Shown one piece after another: positions 9,992-24,187 of a stretch of 32,835 bases of DNA (position 1 is the first letter of the stretch; each line of letters starts with the position of its first letter). Source of the stretch: Candidatus Nanopelagicales bacterium (GTDB lineage: Bacteria; Actinomycetota; Actinomycetes; S36-B12). The position numbers and the translations under genes were made by a program. A model generated the notes under the pieces. That model had not been told where the DNA came from. It saw nothing but the letters and a program-made list of their open reading frames with translations, and made no database searches. The stretch spans positions 1 through 32,835 of the forward strand of contig JALQUH010000126.1 in NCBI GenBank assembly GCA_023263845.1. Direction: 5' to 3'.

Positions 9992-11920
9992 GTGCCTCCG
10001 CGTAGCCTCGCCGATGACCTGCGACGTCGTTCCGAAGACGACCTCGCTCGGCTCCTCACGCTGCGGCCGGACCTGCTCCACCCCGTGCCCCCCGATATCA
10101 CGGCCCTGGCCGCGCGTGCCGCAAGTTCGACCTCCGTAGCCCGCTCACTCGATCGACTCGATGCCCCCTCGCTCGCCGCGGCCCACGCCCTGGCGCGGAT
10201 GGATGAGCCGGCAACCGGGGAGCGCGTGCGCGACATTCTCTCGGCAATCGTTCCGGGTAGAGCCGATGACTTGTTCAGCCACCTTCGCGCCCTCGCGATG
10301 CTGTGGGGAGACGACTCGTCATGGCGTCTGGTGCGAGCGGTTCGCGAGACTCTGCAGAGCGAACCTCGATACGCGGTCGACTGGCCGCCCGTGCCGCTCG
10401 CGACAACCGAGCATGATCCGGTCCGCGTGGAGCGAACTGCTGGTCAACATGCGCTTGCGGCCGTGATGAGTGTGACCGCGATCGCCGAAGCATGGTCCAG
10501 CGACGACGCACCAGCAGTCCTGCGCAAGGGCGGGCTCGGAGTGCGTGATCTCACCGTCACCTCTCGCATCGTTGATCTCGATCCGCATCGGACCGCGCTC
10601 CTCCTCGAAGTCGCGCACGCCGCCGGACTCATCGGCCGCGACGGTGACACGGACGAGCGTTGGCGGCCGACGACGGCGTACGACGACTGGCATGACTCCC
10701 CCCTCGCCGAGCAGTGGGTGACGCTTGCCCGGGCCTGGCTGACGATGCAACGCGCCCCGGACCGTGTCGATGAGGGCTGTAACGCGTTGTCGGACGACAT
10801 GTCTGGCCGCGGCTTACCGCTGCTGCGCGAGCAGGTTCTTCGAGTGCTGGCCGATCTCGCTCCCGGATGTGCACCGGCCGACGTCGGAGAGGTTGTCCGG
10901 GGCGTCGACCTCGCGGCTCCGCGCCACGCCGGACCGCTCCGCACGGCCCGGGTGGCGGCTATCAGTGCCGAACTGGACATGCTGGGCCTTACCGGTGCAC
11001 ATGCTCTCGCCGACATGGGGCGCGCGGTAGCGGGGCTGGTCGACAGCGAGCCGCTGGTCGTGGCCGCGGCCGCCCTGCCGGCACCGGTCGATCACATTCT
11101 CGTGCAGGCCGACCTCACCGCTGTGGCACCTGGACCGCTCGACCCCGAACTCGCACGGCCATTGCGCCTCATGGCCGACGTCGAAAGCACCGGCGGCGCG
11201 ACGGTCTACCGGTTCACCAACGCCTCAGTGCGCCGCGCGATGGACGCCGGTAGCGATGCGACATCACTCCTGGAGTTCCTCACTCGCGCCTCGCGTACCC
11301 CCGTGCCACAACCACTGGGCTACCTCATTGAGGATGCCGCACGATCACACGGCGTCGTGCGGATCGGAGTTGCGACGGCATACATCCGCTGTGATGATCC
11401 GGCGACGCTGGCTACGGTCGTCGCACATCCGCGTTCCACCGACCTTGGAATCACCTCGGTGGCGCCGACGGTGCTCGCTGTTGGTGGTCGACTTGAGGAC
11501 GCGGTGGCGCTACTGCGCGAACTTGGTCTACACCCCGTGCCAGAGAGCCAAGACGGCCACACTTTGGCCCCCGGTTCCGCCGCTCGTCGTGCACCGACCC
11601 CGTCAGCACCTGCCGCCGTGTCTCGACGTGATGCGACACCCGCTCTCGTTCGTGCCGCGATTGCCACGTTGCAGTCGTCGACCGCAGACACGTCGAACGA
11701 GCGCGTCGGATTGGAGCCCATGGCAGCAGCCGACACCGTTGCGGTGTTGCGGCACGCCATCACCGAGTCCCTCCCGGTGTGGGTGGCGCAGGGCGAGGAG
11801 GAACACCTCGTTGAGCCCCTGCGCATGTCCGGAGGCACGCTGACGGCGATTGATCGCGTCACCGGGCAGGTGCGTAGCGTCGCGGTTGCGCGGCTGAGTG
11901 CCGCACGTATTGCCGATTAG
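9992..11920 (+). CDS. Helicase-associated protein (XPB/Ssl2-like Helicase_C_3 domain, WYL-like C-terminus)
   Basis: A 642-residue protein without Walker motifs. Residues 1-360 are mostly helical (RRRSEDDLARLLTLRPDLL; winged-helix-like repeats). Residues ~366-520 (DHILVQADLTAVAPGPL onward) match the conserved C-terminal domain found in proteins annotated as helicase-associated/XPB-Ssl2-like. Residues ~545-640 look like a WYL-type domain (LVEPLRMSGGTLTAIDRVTG). In actinobacteria such a gene usually neighbours the XPB helicase, as here with three genes in between, suggesting joint action in DNA repair. The precise role is not established. Start GTG 9992 is supported by a TANNNT element. Confidence 0.88.
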   Translation: MPPRSLADDLRRRSEDDLARLLTLRPDLLHPVPPDITALAARAASSTSVARSLDRLDAPSLAAAHALARMDEPATGERVRDILSAIVPGRADDLFSHLRALAMLWGDDSSWRLVRAVRETLQSEPRYAVDWPPVPLATTEHDPVRVERTAGQHALAAVMSVTAIAEAWSSDDAPAVLRKGGLGVRDLTVTSRIVDLDPHRTALLLEVAHAAGLIGRDGDTDERWRPTTAYDDWHDSPLAEQWVTLARAWLTMQRAPDRVDEGCNALSDDMSGRGLPLLREQVLRVLADLAPGCAPADVGEVVRGVDLAAPRHAGPLRTARVAAISAELDMLGLTGAHALADMGRAVAGLVDSEPLVVAAAALPAPVDHILVQADLTAVAPGPLDPELARPLRLMADVESTGGATVYRFTNASVRRAMDAGSDATSLLEFLTRASRTPVPQPLGYLIEDAARSHGVVRIGVATAYIRCDDPATLATVVAHPRSTDLGITSVAPTVLAVGGRLEDAVALLRELGLHPVPESQDGHTLAPGSAARRAPTPSAPAAVSRRDATPALVRAAIATLQSSTADTSNERVGLEPMAAADTVAVLRHAITESLPVWVAQGEEEHLVEPLRMSGGTLTAIDRVTGQVRSVAVARLSAARIAD

Positions 11921-11957: not shown

Positions 11958-13070
11958 CTACCGGCCGTCCAGCACCGTCGACCAGGTGCCGAACTCGTCG
12001 AGTAGCGACGGGATCGGATCGACGCCGATCCCCGGACCGGCCGGCACGCGCAGCCGTCCGTCCTGCAGGACGAATGGCTCAGTGATGTCGGTGGCGAAAT
12101 AGCGGCTCGAGGCGCTGGTATCTCCCGGTAGCGTGAAGCCCGGGAGAGCCGCCAGCGCCACGTTGGCCGCACGTCCGATCCCGGTCTCGAGCATCCCGCC
12201 ACACCACACCGGGATGTCGCGCTCGACGCACAGATCATGGATCGCCTTGGCCTCGAGGTAGCCACCCACGCGACCTGGCTTGATGTTGATCACGCTCGTG
12301 GCACCGAACGCGATCGCCGTATCGGCGACGGCCGTGGAGATGATCGACTCATCAAGACACACCGGTGTATCTATCTGCTCGGCGAGCAACGTATGGCCGC
12401 GCAGGTCGTCCTCAGGCAGCGGCTGCTCGACGAGCAGCAGATCGAGCGGATCCATCGCACCGAGAAGCGCCGTGTCCGCACGCGTATAGGCCTGGTTCGC
12501 ATCCGTCTGCAGCGGCATGTCGGGCCAGGCCTCGCGTACCGCTCGCACCGGTTCGATGTCCCAACCGGGCTCGATCTTGAGCTTGATACGCCGGTAGCCG
12601 GCGTCGACGTACGATCCAACCTCGCTCAAGAGGGCATCGATGCTCGTTGGGATACCCACCGAGACACCGCAGTCCACCTCACTTCGGACCGCACCAAGAA
12701 AGTCCGCGAGCGACCGACCCTGCTCGCGCAACCAGGCGTCCAGCATCGCTGTCTCCAGCGCGGACTTGGCCATCGGATGCCCCATGAGCCGTGCGAGTTG
12801 GCTGTGCGCACGTTGCGGATCAAGAGTGCGATCGGCAAGCACCCGCGGCACGAGATGTTCGATGAGTACGTCGACCGCACCATCGACGTACTCGGCCGAG
12901 TAGCCCGGCCACTCCATGGCCGCACACTCGCCCCAGCCACTCACTCCGTCCTCGGTGACGACTTCCACGATGAGGACATCGCGTGCGGTTTGTGTGCCGA
13001 AGGACGTGCGAAATGGCCGCACGAGCGGCATGTCGATTCGGCGCAGACGCACCAACTCAATGCGACTCAT
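11958..13070 (-). CDS. menC: N-succinylamino acid racemase / o-succinylbenzoate synthase (enolase superfamily)
   Basis: A 370-residue enolase-superfamily enzyme of the OSBS/NSAR branch (N-terminus RIDMPLVRPFRTSFGTQ resembles the Amycolatopsis NAAAR). Catalytic set: KLK in RIKLKIEPGWD (~162) with the two Lys, metal ligands Asp (TDANQAY, ~189), Glu (LVEQPLP, ~213) and Asp (CLDESI, ~240), and Lys in NIKPGRVGG (~264). The family makes o-succinylbenzoate for menaquinone and/or racemises N-succinyl amino acids. No other men gene is nearby, while a GNAT and an M20 deacylase are, which favours the racemase role. ATG 13070 has a Shine-Dalgarno (GGGGAG) and overlaps the GNAT gene by 14 bases, so longer frames are rejected. 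Confidence 0.92.
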   Translation of the reverse strand: MSRIELVRLRRIDMPLVRPFRTSFGTQTARDVLIVEVVTEDGVSGWGECAAMEWPGYSAEYVDGAVDVLIEHLVPRVLADRTLDPQRAHSQLARLMGHPMAKSALETAMLDAWLREQGRSLADFLGAVRSEVDCGVSVGIPTSIDALLSEVGSYVDAGYRRIKLKIEPGWDIEPVRAVREAWPDMPLQTDANQAYTRADTALLGAMDPLDLLLVEQPLPEDDLRGHTLLAEQIDTPVCLDESIISTAVADTAIAFGATSVINIKPGRVGGYLEAKAIHDLCVERDIPVWCGGMLETGIGRAANVALAALPGFTLPGDTSASSRYFATDITEPFVLQDGRLRVPAGPGIGVDPIPSLLDEFGTWSTVLDGR

Positions 13071-13953
13071 GCCATCTCCCCTCGGTCGGTTCGAGCACAT
13101 AGGCGCCGTCCGTGGTGACCATGGAGACTCGCAGCCCGGCGTCGTACGCCGCGCGCATCGCCTCACGCAGCGCGAACCTCCACCGCAATGCGCGTGCCGG
13201 ATCTGCTCGCCGAACAGCGACGGCGTCTGACGGCAGATGCACAAGCACCGTCTCCGCCTCAGTGGGCGCTTCATGGGTGACCGGCTCGCCGTCGACGTCA
13301 GTCAGGAGTGCGCGCGCGACGTCGACCAGCGCGACCGAACTCGGCGCCCGCAGCTCCCCCGCGGCAGCCAACGACGCCTGGGTGGAGTCCAGTTGCCACC
13401 ACGCCACGAGACGGTCCGATCGATCACCGGCATTCACCGCATCGGTCATCTCTCCGTAGAAATCCTCGTGGTAGGAGCGCACCTGTACGCCAAGGCGAAC
13501 AACGTTGAAGAAGGCATTGCGGCGGACGAGCGGATCGAAGGTCCATGCGACGACCGGAATTCCCTCCCCCATCGACCATGCTCGCTGGTGCAGTTTCAGT
13601 GCGGTGCCGATGTGTCGATCCCGGTAGTCCTCCCACACGCCCGCCATATGGCTGTGCACGAAGACGCCACCCGGTACCTCCCCCGACCGACCCACTAGCC
13701 CGAGCGCAGCACCCAACGGGCGTCCGGTATCGCGGTCGCGCGCGAGTGAACAGTAGGAACCGGAGTGCACCAGGGCGCGCAGCAGGTTGGGCGTGACCTG
13801 GGTGCCTTCCCCCGGCCACACATGGTCGAGCACCTCCCGCACCTGCCGCTGATCCTCGGCGGTCTCCGCGAGCTCGATGACGACGGATGCGGCCGCATCG
13901 GCCGCACGAGAGGCCTCCCAGGCACGAAGGACCGGGTCGATGTCGGAGGCCAT
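13057..13953 (-). CDS. GNAT acetyltransferase of COG3375 type, putative D-amino acid N-succinyltransferase
   Basis: A 298-residue protein with a GNAT-like core: VHSHMAGVWEDYRDRHIGTALKLHQRAW (~98-125), where RDRHIGTAL serves as the acyl-CoA-binding loop, then WTFDPLVRRNAFFNVVRLG. This long GNAT subfamily commonly accompanies N-succinylamino acid racemase genes. In Geobacillus such a protein is the succinyl-CoA:D-amino acid N-succinyltransferase; assignment here is by family and context. It overlaps the racemase start by 14 bases, so the two are cotranscribed. Start ATG 13953 has TAGCGT 6 nt upstream (leaderless). It is divergent from the M20 gene by 38 nt. Confidence 0.85.
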   Translation of the reverse strand: MASDIDPVLRAWEASRAADAAASVVIELAETAEDQRQVREVLDHVWPGEGTQVTPNLLRALVHSGSYCSLARDRDTGRPLGAALGLVGRSGEVPGGVFVHSHMAGVWEDYRDRHIGTALKLHQRAWSMGEGIPVVAWTFDPLVRRNAFFNVVRLGVQVRSYHEDFYGEMTDAVNAGDRSDRLVAWWQLDSTQASLAAAGELRAPSSVALVDVARALLTDVDGEPVTHEAPTEAETVLVHLPSDAVAVRRADPARALRWRFALREAMRAAYDAGLRVSMVTTDGAYVLEPTEGRWHESH

Positions 13954-13959
13954 GACGCG

Positions 13960-13965
13960 ACGCTA
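13960..13965 (-). promoter_or_regulatory. Putative -10 element of leaderless GNAT-racemase operon
   Basis: TAGCGT, 6 nt, ATG 13953 (minus strand). On the opposite strand CACGAT (13980-13985) lies 6 nt before the M20 ATG 13992 and is a weaker match to TANNNT, so both arms of the divergent pair may be leaderless. Confidence 0.5.
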
Positions 13966-13991
13966 GCGGATCGATACGGCACGATGGTCCG

Positions 13992-15137
13992 ATGCACACC
14001 GTCGATCCCGTGGGCCTCCTCGCCCGGGCAAGGAGCCGCCAGGACGAGCTCGTGGCGGCCGTGGCCGATCTGGTCCAGGTGGAGTCCCCGAGCGCGGACC
14101 TGGACTCCTGCCGGCGCTGTGTCGACCTCACCGCCGCTCTCGTCGAGCGCTGGCTCGGCTCGTCACCTCGGGTCCACGATCACGGAGGCCGCCCGGTGCT
14201 GCAGTGGGGATCGGAGCGCCCGCGTGTTCTGCTCCTCGGCCATCTGGACACCGTGTGGCCCATCGGCACCCTGGAGCGGCTGCCGTGGCGCATCGAAGGC
14301 GATGCGATGAGCGGTCCCGGCGTGTTCGACATGAAGGTCGGCGTGGTGCAGGCCATTGCCGCCGCGGCACTCCTCGATGCCGGTCCCGACGACGGCATCG
14401 GCCTGCTTCTCACCACCGATGAGGAGATCGGGTCCGGTACGTCACGCAACCTCATCGAACAGGTGGCCGCCGACGCCGACGCTGTCTTCGTTCTGGAGGC
14501 CTCCATCGACGGCGATCTCAAGCTCGCCCGCAAGGGCACGTCCTGGTACATCGTGGAGATTATCGGGCGCGCCGCGCACGCCGGCCTGGATCCCGAGCGC
14601 GGCATCAATGCGCTCGTCGAGGCCGCCGGTCTGATCGCTCAGTGCACGACCTGGGCCGATCCCGACCAGGGCACGACGGTAACACCCACCACCGCCACTG
14701 CTGGCGTGACCGACAACACGGTCCCCGACCGCGCCGTCATCGGCATCGACGTACGTGCCTGGACCGCCGACGAGCAGCGCCGCATCGACGACCTCATGCG
14801 CGGCTGGCAACCCACCCACCCGGAGGCCGCCGTGGCCATCATCGGCGGGGGCATCAATCGCCCAGCCATGGAGGAGTCGGCTGGACGCGATCTCGCCGCC
14901 CTCGCCGTCGGACTCGCCTCCGCGCTGGGGCTGCGCGAACTGGGGGCGCGCGCCGTCGGCGGTGCGAGCGATGGCAACTTCACCGCCGCCATCGGCACCC
15001 CCACCCTCGACGGTCTCGGCGCCGTCGGCGACGGGGCGCACGCCGACCACGAATGGGCGAGCGTCAGCGCGCTACCCGAGCGCACGGCACTGCTCGCCGC
15101 CCTCTGCCAGACCGTCCTCGAGCAGGGGACCCGGTGA
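13992..15137 (+). CDS. M20-family metallopeptidase, putative N-succinyl-L-amino acid deacylase
   Basis: A 381-residue di-zinc amidohydrolase (M20/ArgE/CPG2 family). Metal and catalytic motifs: GHLDTVWP with His ~84, GPGVFDMK with the bridging Asp ~113, TDEEIGSG with the catalytic Glu ~143, a following LEASI acidic ligand, and GAHADHEW with the last His ~350. The lid-domain dimerisation segment contains GRAAHAGLDPERG. Members remove acyl groups from amino acids or cleave carboxy-terminal Glu. Divergent from the racemase/GNAT operon, it fits the third step (desuccinylation) of D-to-L amino acid conversion. Its stop overlaps the XPB helicase start by four bases (GTGA), coupling two unrelated functions. 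Confidence 0.9.
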   Translation: MHTVDPVGLLARARSRQDELVAAVADLVQVESPSADLDSCRRCVDLTAALVERWLGSSPRVHDHGGRPVLQWGSERPRVLLLGHLDTVWPIGTLERLPWRIEGDAMSGPGVFDMKVGVVQAIAAAALLDAGPDDGIGLLLTTDEEIGSGTSRNLIEQVAADADAVFVLEASIDGDLKLARKGTSWYIVEIIGRAAHAGLDPERGINALVEAAGLIAQCTTWADPDQGTTVTPTTATAGVTDNTVPDRAVIGIDVRAWTADEQRRIDDLMRGWQPTHPEAAVAIIGGGINRPAMEESAGRDLAALAVGLASALGLRELGARAVGGASDGNFTAAIGTPTLDGLGAVGDGAHADHEWASVSALPERTALLAALCQTVLEQGTR

Positions 15138-16786
15138 CCGACGGACCGCTTATCGTCCAAAGCGACAAGACGCTGCTGCTCGAGGTCGATCATCCCTCCG
15201 CTGCTGACTGCCGCCGTGCCATCGCGCCCTTCGCCGAACTTGAGCGCGCACCGGAGCATGTGCACACCTACCGCGTCACTCCCCTTGCACTCTGGAACGC
15301 GCGAGCAGCCGGCCACGACGCCGAGCAAGTCGTCGACACACTGATCACCTACTCGCGGTACGCCGTACCCCACTCGCTACTCGTCGACATCGCCGAGACG
15401 ATGGACCGCTATGGACGATTGACGATCGCGAAGCATCCCGCGCACGGCCTGGTTCTCATCACCACCGACCAACCCGTGCTCGAAGAGGTACTGCGAAGCA
15501 AGAAGGTGGCGCCACTCGTCGGCGCACGCATCGACGCCGACACGGTCGTCGTCCACCCCAGCGAACGCGGCCATCTGAAGCAGGTCCTTCTCACTCTCGG
15601 TTGGCCGGCGGAGGACCACGCAGGCTACGTCGATGGTGAAGCGCATCCCATCGCCCTGCGGGAAGACGACTGGCACCTGCGCGACTATCAGCGCGACGCC
15701 GTGGAGAATTTCTGGGCCGGAGGCTCCGGGGTCGTCGTCCTCCCCTGCGGTGCCGGCAAGACGATTGTCGGCGCCGCCGCCATGGCTCAGGCCCAGGCCA
15801 CGACGCTGATCCTCGTGACCAACACGGTGTCGGCACGGCAGTGGAAGGCAGAACTGCTCGCGCGCACGACGCTCACCGAGGACGAGATCGGTGAGTACTC
15901 CGGTGCTCGCAAGGAGATTCGGCCTGTGACCATCGCGACGTACCAGGTCATGACCACCAAGCGCAAAGGTGTTTTCCCCCACCTCGAACTCTTCGACACC
16001 CGTGACTGGGGACTGGTCATCTACGACGAGGTGCACCTGCTGCCCGCACCGATCTTCCGATTCACCGCCGACATCCAGTCCCGACGACGACTCGGTCTCA
16101 CCGCCACCCTTATCCGTGAGGACGGTCGCGAGGCAGATGTTTTCACCCTCATCGGCCCCAAGCGATTCGATGCGCCGTGGAAGGAAGTCGAGGCGCAGGG
16201 CTGGATCGCACCGGCCGACTGTGTCGAGATACGAGTATCGCTACCGAACGACGAGCGCCTCGTGTACGCGACGGCCGAACCCGACGACCGCTACCGGCTG
16301 GCCTCGACGACCCCGGCCAAGCACGGCATCGTCGAATCCCTCGTCGCCGCGCACCCGGACGAGCAGATCCTCGTGATCGGCCAGTACCTCGATCAGCTCG
16401 ACGAGATCGCCGAGCATCTCGATGCGCCAACGATCACCGGCGCGACCAGCGCCACCGAACGCCAACGCCTCTTCGAGGCGTTCCGCCAGGGTGAGGTGCG
16501 CATCCTGGTCGTGAGCAAGGTGGCGAACTTCTCCGTCGACCTACCTGAAGCTTCGGTTGCGGTGCAGGTGAGCGGGTCGTTCGGTTCGCGCCAGGAGGAG
16601 GCCCAGCGTCTCGGTCGCCTGCTACGCCCCAAGGCGGACGGTAAAACTGCCCGCTTCTACACCGTGGTGGCCCGCGACACTGTCGACGCGGACTTCGCGC
16701 AGCGAAGGCAGCGATTTCTCGCCGAGCAGGGGTATGCCTATCGGATCATGGACGCCGAGGACCTCGACCGCGCCGAGGAGACCTAG
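15134..16786 (+). CDS. XPB-type DNA repair helicase (3'-5', SF2)
   Basis: A 550-residue superfamily 2 helicase. The N-terminal ~170 residues are the XPB damage-recognition-like/helicase_C_3 region. Then come motif I LPCGAGKT (~203-210), motif II YDEVH (~295-299, the DEVH form), motif III GLTATL with the adjacent RED-type IREDGRE (~319-331), motif V region VVSKVANFSVDLPEA and motif VI QRLGRLLRP (~490). Mycobacterial XPB unwinds DNA 3'-5' with ATP and is linked to excision repair. The GTG start overlaps the M20 stop. The stop shares a CTAG with the convergent YceI-like gene. Longer open frames upstream run antiphase through the M20 gene and are not coding. Confidence 0.95.
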   Translation: MTDGPLIVQSDKTLLLEVDHPSAADCRRAIAPFAELERAPEHVHTYRVTPLALWNARAAGHDAEQVVDTLITYSRYAVPHSLLVDIAETMDRYGRLTIAKHPAHGLVLITTDQPVLEEVLRSKKVAPLVGARIDADTVVVHPSERGHLKQVLLTLGWPAEDHAGYVDGEAHPIALREDDWHLRDYQRDAVENFWAGGSGVVVLPCGAGKTIVGAAAMAQAQATTLILVTNTVSARQWKAELLARTTLTEDEIGEYSGARKEIRPVTIATYQVMTTKRKGVFPHLELFDTRDWGLVIYDEVHLLPAPIFRFTADIQSRRRLGLTATLIREDGREADVFTLIGPKRFDAPWKEVEAQGWIAPADCVEIRVSLPNDERLVYATAEPDDRYRLASTTPAKHGIVESLVAAHPDEQILVIGQYLDQLDEIAEHLDAPTITGATSATERQRLFEAFRQGEVRILVVSKVANFSVDLPEASVAVQVSGSFGSRQEEAQRLGRLLRPKADGKTARFYTVVARDTVDADFAQRRQRFLAEQGYAYRIMDAEDLDRAEET

Positions 16787-17287: not shown

Positions 17288-19756
17288 TCATCGCACCCGC
17301 TCGCGAGCCGGATCGTAGAAGGGCGCGAATTGCAGCGTTGCCGGATAGGCCTGCCCGTTCACAACGACCTCGAAGCCGCCGCTCGCCAACCACTCAGCGG
17401 TCACGCCTTCCGCGTTGTCGACGGTCGCAAGTCCCACCGACGTCCCGAGGGTGTGCCCAAAGCCCCCGATCTGCAGGTGGCCCACCCGAACGCCGTCCTT
17501 ATGGACCGGCTCACTGCCATGGAGAAGTGGCGCCGGGTCATCGACCCGGAGCGGGACGAGCCGACTGGTGCGATCACCACGGAGGGCCTCGAGGGCCGCC
17601 TTGCCCCGGAACGCTGTGGGCTTGTCCCACGCCACCGCGAAGGAGAGCCCGGCTGAGATCGGCGTATCGGTAACGTCGATGTCCAAGCCGTAGTCGCGAT
17701 AAGCCTTCTCCAGGCGCAGGCCGTGCATGGCCGCGAGACCCACGGGACGAAAGCCCAGGTCCTCTCCAGCCGACTCAAGGGTCTCCCATACCGACACCGC
17801 CTGGTCACTGGGAATGAGCAGTTCGAAACCAAGCTCGCCCACATAGGTCACCCGCAGGGCCAGCAGCCGGGAATACCCAACCTCAATCTCCTGGGCCGTG
17901 AGATAGGGGAAGGCCTCCTCGGACAGATCATTCGGGCTTACGCGCTGCAGAAGCTCGCGGGAACGGGGACCTTGCACCGTGAGCAGGCAGTACGCCGCTG
18001 TCATGTCCGTCACGGCCGCATATTCACCCTCACGAACTTCATCGCGGAGCATGCGCTCAACGCGTCGATGGCTGATGTCAGCGACGATGACCATGAATCG
18101 GTCATCTGCCAGTCGAGTGACTGTGAGATCGGCCTCGATGCCGCCCTTGTCGTTGCACCACTGCGTGTACGTCACCTGACCGACCGGACCAGCCACTGCA
18201 TTGGCACTGAGCCGATCCAGGATCGCCGCTGCGTCCGGGCCCTGCACGAGGAACCTGGACATCAAGGTCATGTCCATGGCACCGACGGCCTCCCGGATGG
18301 TGCGGTGCTCCTCGGCGACCCATGGAGTCCAGAAGCCACGTCCCCATGTCTGGGGGATCTCCCGGACGTCCTCTCCCGGTGGATAGAACCACTCGGCGAA
18401 CTCCCAACCCGACGTTACGGCGAAGTGGGCCCGATGCTTGACCCACACCTCGTGCAGCGGCGAGCGGCGAATGTTGCGGGCCGTGTGCGGGTGGTACGTC
18501 GGGTAGGTACCGTCCCCGAAGAGCACACCGAGGAGTTCGACGGTGCGTTCTGATCGAAACCGTCGAGAGTTCTCGACCGCGTGGGCACGCTCGACCGAGA
18601 AGCCCGCGATGTCCACCGGGCAGGCCCCATCCACCATCCACGTGGCCATCAGGCTGCCCACACCACCGGCCTGGAGGATGCCCAGCGAGTTCAGTCCCGC
18701 GGCAATCCACAGCCCGTGCATCTCCGGAGCCGGTCCCAGCATCGGACCGACGTCCGCGGTGAAACTCTCCGGGCCACAGAAGAAGGTCCGAATACCGGCC
18801 GAGCTCAAGGCCGGTATGCGGTCCATCGCCTTCTCCAGGAAGGGAGTCATGCGCTCCCAGTCCGGCGGAATCGTGCCGAAGGCAAAGTCCTCCGGAGCGC
18901 CTTCGGGATGCCAGGCGGCGGCCACCGGCTCGAAAAGCCCGACGAGCATGCCGCCACCCTCTTCGCGGAAGTAGCCGTAGCAGTCCAACTCCTCGATGAT
19001 GGGCAGGTCCCGATGTATTCCGTCGACGGGCTCGGTGAGCAAGTAGTAGTGCTCAGCGGCCTGCAGTGGAACGTCGACGTCGAGTTGAGCCGCGAGTTGC
19101 CGCGTCCACAAGCCTGCAGCCAGGACGACCATGTCGCATTCGACATCGCCCGCATCCGTGCGAACACCGGTGATGGTCGGTCGCTGCCCGGAGCGCGTCG
19201 GTGGTGACGTCATGAACCCCGTTACTCGGACGCCCTCGACAATCGTCGCCCCACCCATTTTGGCGCCCTTGGCCAGCGCTGTCGCCACACCGACTGGATC
19301 AGCCCGCCCCTCGTCCGCGACGTACGAGCCACCGATGAGGTCGTCGACCTTGACCATGGGGAAGAGTTCAGCGATCTCCGCGGGTGTCACCAGCTCATTG
19401 GGGACCCCGAACCCCACCTGGAAATCTCTCTCTCGGACGATCGCTTCCATGCGCTCGGGGCTGGTGGTCACCGAGAGGTGACCCACCGGCCGGAAGCCGG
19501 TCGAATGACCGGTCTCCTCCTCGAGCCGTTCGTACAGGTCCCGCGAGTACCGACAGATCCACAGCGAGGTCTCGTCGTGGAAACCGGCGCTGGTGATGAG
19601 CCCGGCCGCATGCCACGTGGTGCCCGCGGTCAATTCGTGCTTCTCGATGAGGACGACATCCGTCACACCGAGTTTCGTCAAGTGATAGGCGATCGAACAA
19701 CCGATGGACCCCCCGCCGACGATGACGACACGGGCCCGAGCCGGTAGCGATGGCAT
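17288..19756 (-). CDS. FAD-dependent oxidoreductase fused to GcvT domains (dimethylglycine/sarcosine dehydrogenase-like)
   Basis: An 822-residue protein. Residues ~8-400 form a DAO-type FAD domain with VVIVGGGSIGCSIAYHL (10-26) and GTTWHAAGL, in which His49 sits where dimethylglycine dehydrogenase binds FAD covalently. A linker (FAO_M-like) follows to ~460, then a GcvT aminomethyltransferase domain and GcvT C-terminal barrel (~470-815; RDYGLDIDVTDTPISAGL). Such enzymes oxidatively demethylate N-methyl amino acids and pass the one-carbon unit to tetrahydrofolate. Strong Shine-Dalgarno (AAGGAG) before ATG 19756. It follows the PotBC-like permeases by 33 nt in the same operon, linking uptake and demethylation. 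The actual substrate is unknown; sarcosine-type is an alternative. Confidence 0.92.
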   Translation of the reverse strand: MPSLPARARVVIVGGGSIGCSIAYHLTKLGVTDVVLIEKHELTAGTTWHAAGLITSAGFHDETSLWICRYSRDLYERLEEETGHSTGFRPVGHLSVTTSPERMEAIVRERDFQVGFGVPNELVTPAEIAELFPMVKVDDLIGGSYVADEGRADPVGVATALAKGAKMGGATIVEGVRVTGFMTSPPTRSGQRPTITGVRTDAGDVECDMVVLAAGLWTRQLAAQLDVDVPLQAAEHYYLLTEPVDGIHRDLPIIEELDCYGYFREEGGGMLVGLFEPVAAAWHPEGAPEDFAFGTIPPDWERMTPFLEKAMDRIPALSSAGIRTFFCGPESFTADVGPMLGPAPEMHGLWIAAGLNSLGILQAGGVGSLMATWMVDGACPVDIAGFSVERAHAVENSRRFRSERTVELLGVLFGDGTYPTYHPHTARNIRRSPLHEVWVKHRAHFAVTSGWEFAEWFYPPGEDVREIPQTWGRGFWTPWVAEEHRTIREAVGAMDMTLMSRFLVQGPDAAAILDRLSANAVAGPVGQVTYTQWCNDKGGIEADLTVTRLADDRFMVIVADISHRRVERMLRDEVREGEYAAVTDMTAAYCLLTVQGPRSRELLQRVSPNDLSEEAFPYLTAQEIEVGYSRLLALRVTYVGELGFELLIPSDQAVSVWETLESAGEDLGFRPVGLAAMHGLRLEKAYRDYGLDIDVTDTPISAGLSFAVAWDKPTAFRGKAALEALRGDRTSRLVPLRVDDPAPLLHGSEPVHKDGVRVGHLQIGGFGHTLGTSVGLATVDNAEGVTAEWLASGGFEVVVNGQAYPATLQFAPFYDPARERVR

Positions 19757-19789
19757 GGTCTCTCCTTGGTTGAAATGGGATTTCGAGAT

Positions 19790-20713
19790 CTAGATCTGGC
19801 TAGCGATTGCGCCGATATCCGTCCCGCGCTCACCGCGGTTAAGTCGGCGATAGAGCAGCCATCCCAGAATGATGACCACGGTCGAGACCACCAGGATGAT
19901 TGTTGCCATGGCATTGAGTGCGGGCGTCGGCGCCGCTCGCGCTGTCTGATAGATGCGCATGGACGTGGTTTCCGTTGACGCATCGGATGACAGATAGCGA
20001 ACGATGACGAAATCGTCGAGAACTCCAGCGAAAACGATAATGGCGCTCACCAGAATTGCGGGGAACAGCATCGGCAGGATCACTCGCCGGATAGCCCCGA
20101 GCGCCGTGGCACCGAGGTCGCGCGCAGCTTCCTCATACTGCGTTCCGATCGTGAGCAGGCGGGCTCGGCAGATCACCACCGGATAGGCCAGTTGGAAGGT
20201 GACGAGCCCGATGACCTGGGCGGTCGTTCCCAGGCCGAAAGGAGTCGCGAGGTACGTCACCATGAACAACAGGCCAATGGCCAAGGCGATCTCGGGGATG
20301 ACAAAGGTGATGAGGACGGTGAAGTTGGCGCCGGCCGGAATACGACCCCGCCAACGATCGAGCGCGAGGGCGAGGAGCACACCGAGTGGCACCGTGATGA
20401 TCGTCGCGAGGATGCCGAGCACGATGGTGTGCATCAAGGTCACCCGGATGGACTCATCGTTGAGGACCGATCCATCGGGATCCCAGGTGTACCACCGCGT
20501 GGAAAACCCCTGCCACGTACTTCGTGAGCGGCCAGCGTTAAAGGAAAACAGCACCACGATGGCGACCGGCACCAGCGACCACAGCAGGTAGATAGTTGTG
20601 ATCGTCGCCAAGCCGTAGGCACGGGCATCCGACGAGCCGCGAAGTCGCGATCGACGGCCGCCCGGCTGCGACTCTTCGAGTATCGCTTCAGCGGGTGCTG
20701 CTGACACCGTCAT
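19790..20713 (-). CDS. ABC transporter permease, PotC-like
   Basis: A 307-residue inner-membrane permease with about six transmembrane segments (first ~33-56) and the ABC-interaction EAA loop EEAARDLGATALGAIRRVILP (~190-210). It resembles the second permease (PotC) of spermidine/putrescine-type importers. The start ATG 20713 overlaps the stop of the PotB-like gene (ATGA), so translation is coupled. A perfect AGATCTAGATCT palindrome overlaps its stop codon (19786-19797). Substrate specificity cannot be read from the sequence; the surrounding genes suggest a methylated or cationic amine. Confidence 0.93.
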   Translation of the reverse strand: MTVSAAPAEAILEESQPGGRRSRLRGSSDARAYGLATITTIYLLWSLVPVAIVVLFSFNAGRSRSTWQGFSTRWYTWDPDGSVLNDESIRVTLMHTIVLGILATIITVPLGVLLALALDRWRGRIPAGANFTVLITFVIPEIALAIGLLFMVTYLATPFGLGTTAQVIGLVTFQLAYPVVICRARLLTIGTQYEEAARDLGATALGAIRRVILPMLFPAILVSAIIVFAGVLDDFVIVRYLSSDASTETTSMRIYQTARAAPTPALNAMATIILVVSTVVIILGWLLYRRLNRGERGTDIGAIASQI

Positions 20714-21606
20714 GACCGCACCTCCGCCTTCGCCGTGCTGCGGGTGTACCAGATCATGGGAAGGAGAAGCACCAGAAGCAGCAGGATGAGCAATGCGCCC
20801 GCCTGACCCGACTGCCCTGGCGTTGCGATCGAGAGATTGATGAGGTTGCCGATCATGGAGGTGCTCGGCGACTTGGACAGCATGTCGGTGGTGAAGTAGT
20901 CGCCCATCATGGGGAGCGCGACGAGAAGAGTTCCTGCGATGACCCCCGGCATGCTCATGGGCAGGACGACCCGTCGGAAGAGATCAAAACTGCCGGCACC
21001 CAAGTCGCGGGCCGCCTCGAGCAAACTTGGATTGATGCGATCCAGGGCAGCAAAGAGGGGCAGGATCATGTACGGCACGTACCCGTAGATCAGCCCCAGA
21101 ACGACCGTGTAGGGGTTGCCGCTGAGCCAATTGACATCGAGCGGGACAACGCCTCCCATCGTGATGACAGCGTTGACGAGGCCATCCGGCTGCAGCAGGT
21201 TGATCCACGCCAGCATGCGCATCATGTAGGAAATCCAGAATGGCGCGACCAGAAGTGCCAGAACCAACGCTCGGTATCGGCCGGCATAGCGGGCGGCGAA
21301 GTAAGCCACGGGGAAGGAAATCACTAAGCAGGCGACCACAGCAATGACGACGTAGTAGAGCGTGCGCAGCACCGGCGGGAGGTAAAAGTTGTCGGGTCCG
21401 ACAAGTCGATCCCACACCACCACGACCTGGTCGAAGCGCCACTCCAACGGGTTCCACACCGGGATCGGTGTACGGAAGATCGGATCGACCTCGCCGAAGG
21501 ACACGCAGAAGACGACGTACAGCGGAACGAGGAAGAACAGGACGATCCAGACGATCGCGGGCAGGCCGAGAATCGGCCACAACAGCCGCTGGAGGCGTCC
21601 GCCCAA
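20710..21606 (-). CDS. ABC transporter permease, PotB-like
   Basis: A 298-residue inner-membrane permease with six or so transmembrane segments and the EAA loop LLEAARDLGAGSFDLFRRVVLP (~195-215, quoted in part). The N-terminal TM (ILGLPAIVWIVLFFLVPLYV) and the large periplasmic loop match PotB-type subunits. The start is TTG 21606, two bases after the TGA of the binding-protein gene (TGA-C-TTG), the only start in frame that keeps TM1; coupling would explain the weak codon. Partner of the PotC-like permease. Confidence 0.92.
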   Translation of the reverse strand: MGGRLQRLLWPILGLPAIVWIVLFFLVPLYVVFCVSFGEVDPIFRTPIPVWNPLEWRFDQVVVVWDRLVGPDNFYLPPVLRTLYYVVIAVVACLVISFPVAYFAARYAGRYRALVLALLVAPFWISYMMRMLAWINLLQPDGLVNAVITMGGVVPLDVNWLSGNPYTVVLGLIYGYVPYMILPLFAALDRINPSLLEAARDLGAGSFDLFRRVVLPMSMPGVIAGTLLVALPMMGDYFTTDMLSKSPSTSMIGNLINLSIATPGQSGQAGALLILLLLVLLLPMIWYTRSTAKAEVRS

Positions 21607-21607
21607 G

Positions 21608-22912
21608 TCAGGCTCCAGCTTTGAACTGCTGCCAGATCTTCTGGTACTCCGCCTCGGTCTCGGGCTTCAGTTCGAGCAAGGGGTAGCCCACGTCGAACCA
21701 TTCGGGCTTCACGACAGCCGCGGCTAGGTTTTCCGGAACCCAGCCGTCGGCCACCATCGTCTCGGGGGACAGCGACTTCATGGGTGGCTGGTAGCCCACC
21801 CAGCCGAAGTTCTCCAGTGCCACATCGTTCGTGAGCATGTAGTTGAGGAAGTGATGTGCCAGGACCGGGTTTTCGCCCCCCTTGAGAATGCACAGGAAGT
21901 CGTTGCCAATGAGGCCATTGCCATCCGGCGGGCTCCAGTAGCGCAGCACAGAGGGATCGACGCCTTCGGGCATGTAGTACTGCCCGGTGATCATGTCCCC
22001 GGACCAGCATTGCGAAAGGGAGAGCGTGCCCTCGGGAATATCGGTGTATCCGGTAATCGTGACCCGCGGCTGGCTGAGTGACAACATCTCCAGCATCGCG
22101 TCGCGAGCAGCTCCCAACGTTGCCGGATCGCTGGAGTTCACATCCGTGCCGCCGTTACGCAGGATGGTCATGCCGATCACCTCGCGGTCATCGTCAAGCA
22201 CCGCGAGCTCTCCCGCATACTTGGTGTCCCAGAACACGTTGTAGGGATCGGGGCGTGCACCGATGTCCTCGGGAATGAGATCGGATCGCCACCCGATGCC
22301 GGTCGTGTACACCGTGTAGGGCACGGTGTACTGCCACTCCTGGTCGTACCACGGGTTCTGGAAGTTGTCCCAAGCATCCACGATGTTGGGGATGTAGCTG
22401 TGATTCAGCGGTCGAATCAAGTCTCCGTAAACCAACTTGCCGAGATAGTTGTACGTCAGGAAGGCCACGTCGTAGGGAACGCTTCCGCTACGGATCTTCG
22501 TCAGGGCCTCGGGAAGGTCATTGAAAGTCGATAGCTCGATGTTGACGTTGTAGTCCGCGTACTCCTTCTGGAAATTCTTCAGGACGCGGTTCCAGACGTA
22601 GTCCGGATAGTTGTAGAGCCGCAGCGTGGCATTGGCTTCGGGTTCCAAGTCTGAGGCGATGGGTTCGTTGCCCGCGTTGATCGGCCACTTGACGGGGTTC
22701 TGCGGCGACGCGATCGGGATGCCGGTCTCGGATGGTGCGGGAGCCGCACTCGCCGACGATCCCCCGTCCACTGAGGCAGAGGAGGCAGAGGTGGGTGCGC
22801 CGAGCGGCTGTTCGCGCGCGCAGGAGGACAGCGCCCACGCGCCGGGGAGCGCAAGGGCCGACGCCTGCAGAATCTGGCGGCGAGACACCGGGCGGCGGGG
22901 GCGATTCGTCAT
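21608..22912 (-). CDS. Extracellular solute-binding lipoprotein, PotD-like
   Basis: A 434-residue binding protein of the spermidine/putrescine type. N-terminus: basic region with a Tat-like SRRQIL (10-15), hydrophobic stretch and lipobox LSSC with lipidated Cys31, then a Ser/Ala-rich linker to ~65. The mature part has LRLYNYPDYVWNRVLKNF (~97-114), similar to PotD/PotF N-terminal strands. It would capture the substrate outside the membrane for the PotBC permeases. Shine-Dalgarno GAGGAG before ATG 22912. First gene of the pot-DMGDH operon, with an operator-like palindrome 47 bases upstream (22959-22974). The ATPase gene is divergent rather than in the operon. Confidence 0.93.
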   Translation of the reverse strand: MTNRPRRPVSRRQILQASALALPGAWALSSCAREQPLGAPTSASSASVDGGSSASAAPAPSETGIPIASPQNPVKWPINAGNEPIASDLEPEANATLRLYNYPDYVWNRVLKNFQKEYADYNVNIELSTFNDLPEALTKIRSGSVPYDVAFLTYNYLGKLVYGDLIRPLNHSYIPNIVDAWDNFQNPWYDQEWQYTVPYTVYTTGIGWRSDLIPEDIGARPDPYNVFWDTKYAGELAVLDDDREVIGMTILRNGGTDVNSSDPATLGAARDAMLEMLSLSQPRVTITGYTDIPEGTLSLSQCWSGDMITGQYYMPEGVDPSVLRYWSPPDGNGLIGNDFLCILKGGENPVLAHHFLNYMLTNDVALENFGWVGYQPPMKSLSPETMVADGWVPENLAAAVVKPEWFDVGYPLLELKPETEAEYQKIWQQFKAGA

Positions 22913-22958
22913 GCGGACTCCTCAATCTGCGGGCAAAACTGGCCGAATGATGCCTAGA

Positions 22959-22974
22959 CTGAACCACCGCTCAG
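22959..22974. promoter_or_regulatory. Putative TetR operator A (pot operon / potA)
   Basis: CTGAACCACCGCTCAG, within a longer 7-bp perfect inverted repeat AGACTGA/TCAGTCT (22957-22976). It matches the 16-bp pattern at 28721, 29433 and 29469 and sits between the divergent binding-protein and ATPase genes, where it could control both. Conserved outer bases CTGAA...TCAG and spacing are seen; binding by the nearby TetR is inferred. Confidence 0.6.
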
Positions 22975-22976
22975 TC

Positions 22977-23004
22977 TTGCGCAAGGACTTCGGCAAATTA
23001 GGGA
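22977..23004 (+). promoter_or_regulatory. Possible promoter of the potA-like gene
   Basis: TTGCGC (22977-22982), 16-nt spacer, TAGGGA (22999-23004) reads as -35/-10 toward potA. Operator A lies directly upstream of the -35. TTGCGCAA is itself palindromic and could also serve the opposite strand. Confidence 0.3.
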
Positions 23005-23029
23005 GAATTGCGCCTCTGAGGGGCACAAT

Positions 23030-23062
23030 GCGATTCACCCACAGGGCGATTCACCCACAGGG
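23030..23062 (+). repeat. Tandem 16-base direct repeat upstream of potA
   Basis: GCGATTCACCCACAGG occurs twice back to back (23030-23045, 23046-23061), followed by a third G at 23062. It lies between the possible promoter and the potA start, in the untranslated leader. It may be replication slippage or a binding site; no function is known. The rest of 22913-23101 holds only operator A, a promoter candidate and the potA Shine-Dalgarno. Confidence 0.7.
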
Positions 23063-23101
23063 CTGGCTTGATGCTGCGCCCACGAAGCGAAGGAGACCCC
23101 C

Positions 23102-24187
23102 TTGAGAGGTGGCAGCGTCCACGTCGTGAACCTGCACAAGTCCTATGGGGATGTGGCGGCCGTTCGCGGCATATCAGTCGACGTTGCGGCCGGAGAGTTC
23201 TTCAGCCTTCTGGGGCCGTCCGGATGCGGCAAGACGACAACGCTGCGCATGATCGCTGGCTTCGAAGCCCCGACCGAGGGTGAGATCCGCATCGACGGCG
23301 AGGATGTGGCCCGCGTTCCGGCCAACGATCGACCTGTGAACACTGTCTTCCAGAACTACGCGCTCTTTCCCTTCATGTCCGTGGCCGACAACGTGGCGTT
23401 CGGACTGCGATATCGGAAGTTGAGCAAGGCCGAGGCCAAGGCCAAAGTGGGCGAGGCCCTGGAAATGGTGCGCATGGAGGGCTACGCAAAGCGCAAGCCC
23501 GGTCAACTCTCCGGAGGTCAACAGCAGCGAGTAGCCCTCGCCAGGGCCATCGTCCTAGGGCCGAGGGTGCTCCTTCTCGACGAACCCCTGGGAGCCTTGG
23601 ATGCCAAACTTCGCAAGACCCTGCAAATCGAGTTGAAGGCCCTCCAGGAGTCGCTCGGCATCACCTTCATCTATGTGACGCACGACCAAGAGGAAGCGCT
23701 GACGATGTCGGACCGTCTCGCCGTCATGGCGGGCGGGCTCATCGAGCAGGTGGGAACCCCCGAGGACGTCTACGACGCCCCCGCTACGGCCTACGTCGCC
23801 GACTTCCTCGGAAGTGCCAACATTCTCAATGTCGAGGTTGTCGGTTCGTCGAGCGAGGGCAGGGTGAGCTTCCGCCTCGGCCCCGACGTACTCAGTTGCC
23901 GCGGGCAGGGCGCCGCCGGTTCGGACATGAGACTGGTCGTCCGCCCAGAGCGGTTGCTTCTGGAGCCGACCGACGAGGAAGCCGGAACCATCGATGGCAC
24001 AGTCACGCGAACGGTGTACCAGGGTCCGACGACGGACGTGCTCGTACGCCTCGCCAGCGGCGATGAGCTCGTCGTGCGCCGGCCCAGTGAGCGGGCCGGT
24101 CAGCACGCTCCTGGCGACAAGGTGACGGTGCACTGCCGCCCGGACGCCATGTTGCTGCTTCCGCCGGGGGCACTCACGTCTGCCTGA
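23102..24187 (+). CDS. ABC transporter ATP-binding protein, PotA-like
   Basis: A 361-residue importer ATPase. Walker A GPSGCGKT (38-45), Q-loop VFQNYALFP, signature LSGGQQQR (~136-143), Walker B LLLDEPLGALD (~157-167), switch His in YVTHDQEEAL, and a C-terminal TOBE domain (~275-355, VVRPERL). This is the PotA/UgpC type and would drive the PotBCD-like system encoded divergently. The start is TTG 23102, chosen because AAGGAG lies 6 nt upstream; an internal GTG lacks a site. It is convergent with the Rieske gene, separated by 93 bases containing a long inverted repeat. Confidence 0.93.
   Translation: MRGGSVHVVNLHKSYGDVAAVRGISVDVAAGEFFSLLGPSGCGKTTTLRMIAGFEAPTEGEIRIDGEDVARVPANDRPVNTVFQNYALFPFMSVADNVAFGLRYRKLSKAEAKAKVGEALEMVRMEGYAKRKPGQLSGGQQQRVALARAIVLGPRVLLLDEPLGALDAKLRKTLQIELKALQESLGITFIYVTHDQEEALTMSDRLAVMAGGLIEQVGTPEDVYDAPATAYVADFLGSANILNVEVVGSSSEGRVSFRLGPDVLSCRGQGAAGSDMRLVVRPERLLLEPTDEEAGTIDGTVTRTVYQGPTTDVLVRLASGDELVVRRPSERAGQHAPGDKVTVHCRPDAMLLLPPGALTSA

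Follow-up and report, generated by a model that had tools for sequence, protein, structure and literature searches.

A putative D- to L-amino acid conversion module between two helicase genes of a Candidatus Nanopelagicales bacterium

Contig JALQUH010000126.1 of a Candidatus Nanopelagicales bacterium (assembly GCA_023263845.1), here called the window in its full length of 32,835 nucleotides, carries three intact genes that fill positions 11958-15137 and represent together all gene families of the pathway which converts D- to L-amino acids. On the minus strand, a proposed D-amino acid N-succinyltransferase with a GNAT fold (298 amino acids (aa), 13057..13953) precedes an enzyme of the N-succinylamino acid racemase/o-succinylbenzoate synthase (NSAR/OSBS) family of the enolase superfamily (370 aa, 11958..13070); the GNAT stop and the racemase start, the latter best set at the ATG at 13070 (MSRIEL...) and not at 13274, overlap by 14 nt. 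A divergent spacer of 38 nt (13954..13991) separates the GNAT ATG at 13953 from the ATG at 13992 of the third gene, which is on the plus strand and encodes an M20 metallohydrolase of the carboxypeptidase G2 type, a proposed N-succinyl-L-amino acid deacylase (13992..15137). The flanking genes, both on the plus strand, encode a Helicase_C_3 (XPB-associated) protein outside the pathway on the left (9992..11920; PF13625) and the DNA repair helicase XPB on the right (15134..16786; NF045503 869 bits, cut-off 610). The TGA of the M20 gene (15135-15137) and the GTG start of XPB (15134) share 4 nt (GTGA). Open reading frames (ORFs) and start sites thus bear out the arrangement given in a preliminary description of this DNA, three genes at 11958-15137 diverging from a 38-nt gap, and its enzyme families agree with the profile, Protein Data Bank (PDB) and fold matches; COG3375 is that description's own label for the GNAT. 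In all probability, judged by homology and gene order, the three genes encode the known route of acylation, racemisation and deacylation.

The racemase is the best defined member. It scores 320 bits against TIGR01928 (cut-off 200.65), and its best solved relatives are the N-acylamino acid racemases of Amycolatopsis (1sja, 4a6g, 7s8w; E 8e-138 for 1sja), which have the same catalytic residues. Its counterpart in A. orientalis (locus L135), 59% identical, is itself nearly identical to 1sja (805 bits over 368 residues). In the alignment with 1sja the NSAR/OSBS lysine pair (K165, K264) and three acidic ligands (D190, E215, D240) are kept; we take the former to be the catalytic lysines and the latter to be the metal ligands. 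R267, within NIKPGRVGG, corresponds to Amycolatopsis position 266, where 7s8w has Gln, and a 2021 study by Truong reportedly found that an Arg at this position helps to set racemase specificity. All six residues are kept in 24 of 25 aligned sequences, the 25th being a fragment at a contig end. The lysine pair is catalytic in NSAR/OSBS enzymes, as stated in PMC8142540.

The M20 protein matches the Peptidase_M20 and dimerisation domains (PF01546, PF07687). Its closest PDB relatives are carboxypeptidase G2 structures (1cg2, E 3.9e-39), and H84, D113, E144, E145, E169 and H350, by comparison with carboxypeptidase G2 presumably the metal ligands and the catalytic Glu, are present in all 17 aligned sequences. 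For the product of 13057-13953 no Pfam or NCBIfam model gave a match, a single-sequence search of the PDB returned nothing up to E 1, and a profile search of the PDB yielded four very weak matches, three of which bear GNAT or acetyltransferase in their names. The AlphaFold model (pLDDT 93.8, pTM 0.91) has GNAT acetyltransferases as its best PDB matches, over residues 24-190 of 298 (Foldseek E 1.1e-08; VIA Z 15.3, 151 residues, 2.0 Å), so that the gene is predicted from its modelled structure to encode a GNAT-fold protein. The fold itself points to no particular acceptor.

In the spacer, TAGCGT stands 6 nt before the GNAT ATG and reads towards it (TAGCGT-N6-ATG). Of 29 distinct divergent loci (that of the window and 28 others), 28 have on the GNAT side a TANNNT separated by 6 or 7 nt from an in-frame start; after shuffling of the upstream DNA the mean was 1.51 and the maximum 5, candidate starts within 25 codons being allowed for real and shuffled sequences alike. 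For other genes the counts of the motif were 2 of 25 (racemase), 5 of 23 (XPB) and 3 of 10 (Helicase_C_3). In actinobacteria, TANNNT close to a start codon signifies leaderless transcription. Because the motif and its distance to the start are conserved and the shuffled counts are low, a conserved leaderless promoter for GNAT and racemase in the 38-nt spacer is supported. The shared promoter region proposed in the preliminary description therefore stands for this side, but not for the M20 gene, for which no leaderless promoter was found, the motif being present before its start in one of the 29 divergent loci.

According to the scheme we propose, the GNAT would acylate a D-amino acid, succinyl-CoA being the most likely donor. 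The resulting N-succinyl-amino acid would be racemised by the enolase-superfamily enzyme through two-lysine chemistry and a metal-bound enolate, a step which is strongly supported by family and residues, and the M20 enzyme may deacylate the L-form only, by which the mixture would be pulled towards the L-amino acid. Comparative sequence data support that GNAT and racemase form one overlapping leaderless operon, and the divergent M20 gene is probably coupled translationally to XPB.

The distribution of the genes supports this scheme. Among the 27 genomes of the same family and order (all that are listed), the GNAT and a TIGR01928 enzyme above cut-off occur in 17 each, and the two lists are identical. 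In one of these genomes (G264) the racemase lies on contig C23 and the GNAT on C5, so that their co-occurrence is not due to proximity alone. The separated racemase (L153:5794-6924, G264:C23) has a gene for a phage-type integrase at a distance of about 0.5 kb. Further support comes from G001, a genome without GNAT, in which a lone enolase of 371 aa (L152:5932-7047, G001:C6) stands between the helicase genes: it reaches 175.6 bits, below the TIGR01928 cut-off, and neither the first catalytic lysine nor the arginine is left in it, RIA standing in place of the KLK motif and KPSG in place of KPGR. It is possibly a changed or decaying relic.

A wider set consisted of 80 named GNAT loci, the best 80 of at least 582 relatives, which do not give unbiased rates and a few of which repeat unnamed loci of the order. 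The racemase lies directly downstream of the GNAT in 56 of them; in the other 24 it does not (21) or the contig edge intervenes (3). M20 is divergent in 20 loci and co-directional with the racemase in 10, the latter arrangement occurring in Amycolatopsis (L130, L135, L147), Microbacterium and others. From the near identity of the L135 racemase to 1sja it follows that a near twin of the characterised enzyme sits in an M20-GNAT-racemase operon, which again argues for the pathway. There, M20 and GNAT are directly upstream of the racemase and are 52% and 41% identical to those of the window; all three genes are co-directional and not near helicases, whereas those of the window diverge inside the helicase pair. 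The pathway is likewise supported by Deinococcus radiodurans (1r0m solved; plasmid paralogue L168), where racemase, with its catalytic residues kept, and GNAT share one plasmid cluster; in contrast to the window, a gene for a family 3 solute-binding protein separates them and the annotation of the stretch includes no M20. Genes for S12 (beta-lactamase-family) hydrolases near 12 of the 80 named loci, one of these genes being cut off where its locus ends, and beside a Streptomyces plasmid trio also fit the pathway, the S12 family including D-aminopeptidases; since the queries were taken from two of these loci, the count shows recurrence alone. Around the co-directional trio (L130, L131, L137, L139, L147, L149, L169) the S12 genes occur repeatedly, in most cases together with PucR-type regulators. 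Five loci (L084, L095, L100, L104, L146) are contigs of metagenome-assembled genomes whose records are entitled, for example, Bifidobacterium breve or Streptomyces griseus; these titles are probably wrong, the loci being like those of freshwater actinobacteria.

For Geobacillus kaustophilus, Sakai et al. reportedly described in 2006 (Biochemistry 45:4455) a GNAT succinyltransferase, an N-succinylamino acid racemase and an M20 desuccinylase. The same three activities are proposed here. Geobacillus belongs to a different phylum, and in the window GNAT-racemase and M20 are divergent and inside the helicase pair. The pathway itself is already known; the lineage is new. In the open-access literature on the racemase, on NSAR/OSBS enzymes and on D-amino acids in Nanopelagicales, no description of the locus or of the pathway in this group was found.

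Several observations weigh against the assignment of the complete pathway. NSAR/OSBS enzymes are promiscuous, and for none of the named hydrolases listed does the M20 protein reach the NCBIfam cut-off. An M20 relative (P0003 as query, E 1e-30) exists in 13 of the 27 genomes, in 12 of them beside the GNAT and in G127 on another contig; it is not beside the GNAT in five of the 17 carriers within the order, and at this threshold none was detected in the GNAT carriers G157, G272, G288 and G105. Neither is M20 next to the GNAT at most acI-type loci. The deacylase is the loosest member of the module, since M20 relatives occur in 13 of 27 genomes and are missing from four GNAT carriers. In Brevibacterium (L109, L111, L114, L116 and others) GNAT homologues stand without a racemase, at L116 adjoining an IclR regulator and a phenol-hydroxylase-type gene; because of such homologues the GNAT family may have further acceptors. 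The same three steps could moreover involve a different acyl group, such as acetyl, or a narrow non-proteinogenic acceptor, serving the salvage of N-acyl-D-amino acids or the detoxification of a specific D-amino acid or amine. Many GNATs use acetyl-CoA, and carboxypeptidase G2, to which the M20 protein is closest, is an N-acyl-glutamate hydrolase; the reported Geobacillus precedent speaks for succinyl. According to PMC8142540, the Amycolatopsis enzyme also racemises N-acetyl-methionine, but the enzymes of Amycolatopsis, Deinococcus and Geobacillus are tabulated with N-succinyl substrates and the kcat/Km of DrNSAR is high (PMC8142540). This variant is therefore regarded as unlikely, though as the most serious competitor of the succinyl route.

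Alternatively, the enolase could be a MenC (o-succinylbenzoate synthase) displaced from its cluster, with GNAT and M20 as chance neighbours. TIGR01928 is indeed named menC, and public plasmid records label such genes in this way (L168:5959-7146 and L169:8921-10045 are annotated as menC, o-succinylbenzoate synthase). The assembly (2.52 Mb in 295 contigs; completeness 92.9%, contamination 5.07%), however, holds a separate menC of the actinobacterial NF002782 type on contig C155 (35743-36720; 328.9 bits, cut-off 288), directly upstream of a menD that is also above cut-off (34437-35663). This menC has its own lysine and acidic motifs and, read by eye, no Arg at the 266 position. As it adjoins menD, the racemase of the window is not needed for menaquinone. 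NF002782 matches are above cut-off in 20 of the 27 genomes and present at E 1e-3 in 26, and nine of the ten genomes without a TIGR01928 enzyme above cut-off do have menD above cut-off. The tight link to the GNAT in the named loci is likewise at odds with chance neighbourhood. The menaquinone function was therefore rejected as very improbable, given the menC-menD pair on C155 and menD in genomes without the TIGR01928 enzyme. According to the preliminary description no menaquinone gene is nearby, which agrees with a scan of 30 ORFs of the window (not every ORF), where none was found, and the window menC-like gene, for which a second menC elsewhere in the genome had been considered, is not the only one. 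A futalosine route as menaquinone source was also discarded, MqnC matches being below cut-off in all 27 genomes; the best of them consist of several match pieces within open frames some 766-1469 codons long, which look, we presume, like the FO synthase of F420. The genome also encodes two alanine-racemase-fold proteins above cut-off, which speak neither for nor against the D- to L-amino acid pathway.

How the module came to lie at this position can be traced in the gene order of the 27 genomes, which was taken from homology-search tables and tblastn; simple ORF calls misframe places and missed some GNATs (e.g. at L162). XPB and the Helicase_C_3 protein occur in the same 22 genomes. Six of these are without GNAT, and in five (G212, G203, G047, G029, G080) the helicase genes lie side by side, the ends of their matches some 30-160 nt apart and, in G203 and G047, their ORFs overlapping by 4 nt; the sixth is G001 with its lone enolase in between. 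In 15 of the 16 genomes with GNAT and helicases, module genes lie between the latter, and the 16th (G238), split by contig ends, fits this order. The 17th carrier, G247 (L162, G247:C6), belongs to the genus of the window and is its closest relative: it has the trio together with the outer neighbours (cold-shock gene, 16783-type gene and DAO/GcvT gene), and no match for XPB or the Helicase_C_3 gene was found in its genome. With the helicases adjacent in five of six genomes without GNAT and separated by module genes in 15 of the 17 carriers, insertion of the module in an ancestor within the order is well supported by comparative gene order, and the suggestion that the helicase genes are usually neighbours, so that insertion is plausible, is strengthened. 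Most simply, the module would have been inserted into a helicase pair whose genes overlapped, and the M20 gene would have taken over the coupling to XPB. A functional link between module and helicases beyond mere insertion, for example in an amino acid recycling linked to DNA damage, seems the least credible proposal of all, despite the position of module genes in these 15 carriers (a 16th being split by contig ends) and the overlap of 4 nt between M20 and XPB: G247 retains trio and outer neighbours without a helicase match, six of the 22 XPB-bearing genomes are without GNAT, and XPB, which is near 18 of the 20 divergent named loci, is absent from the stretch around all 10 co-directional trios and is not annotated beside the Streptomyces plasmid trio. 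It is conceivable, if quite improbable, that within the order the deacylase became a translationally coupled partner of XPB, so that expression of salvage and helicase is tied and selection, not chance, maintains the insertion.

The NSAR pathway of Geobacillus and Amycolatopsis would, if the proposed D- to L-amino acid route is correct, be widespread in Actinomycetota, including freshwater lineages of the Nanopelagicales type, and its racemase genes can easily pass for the menC of menaquinone synthesis. Aged dissolved organic matter is rich in D-amino acids, and a dedicated route to the L-forms in freshwater Nanopelagicales-type bacteria would be ecologically testable. At 17288-24187 the window also encodes a DAO/GcvT fusion enzyme and, next to it, an ABC importer made up of two permeases, a binding protein and an ATPase. 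No HAD gene was seen at the G247 locus; the DAO/GcvT fusion enzyme of the window and the genes beside it also adjoin the module there.

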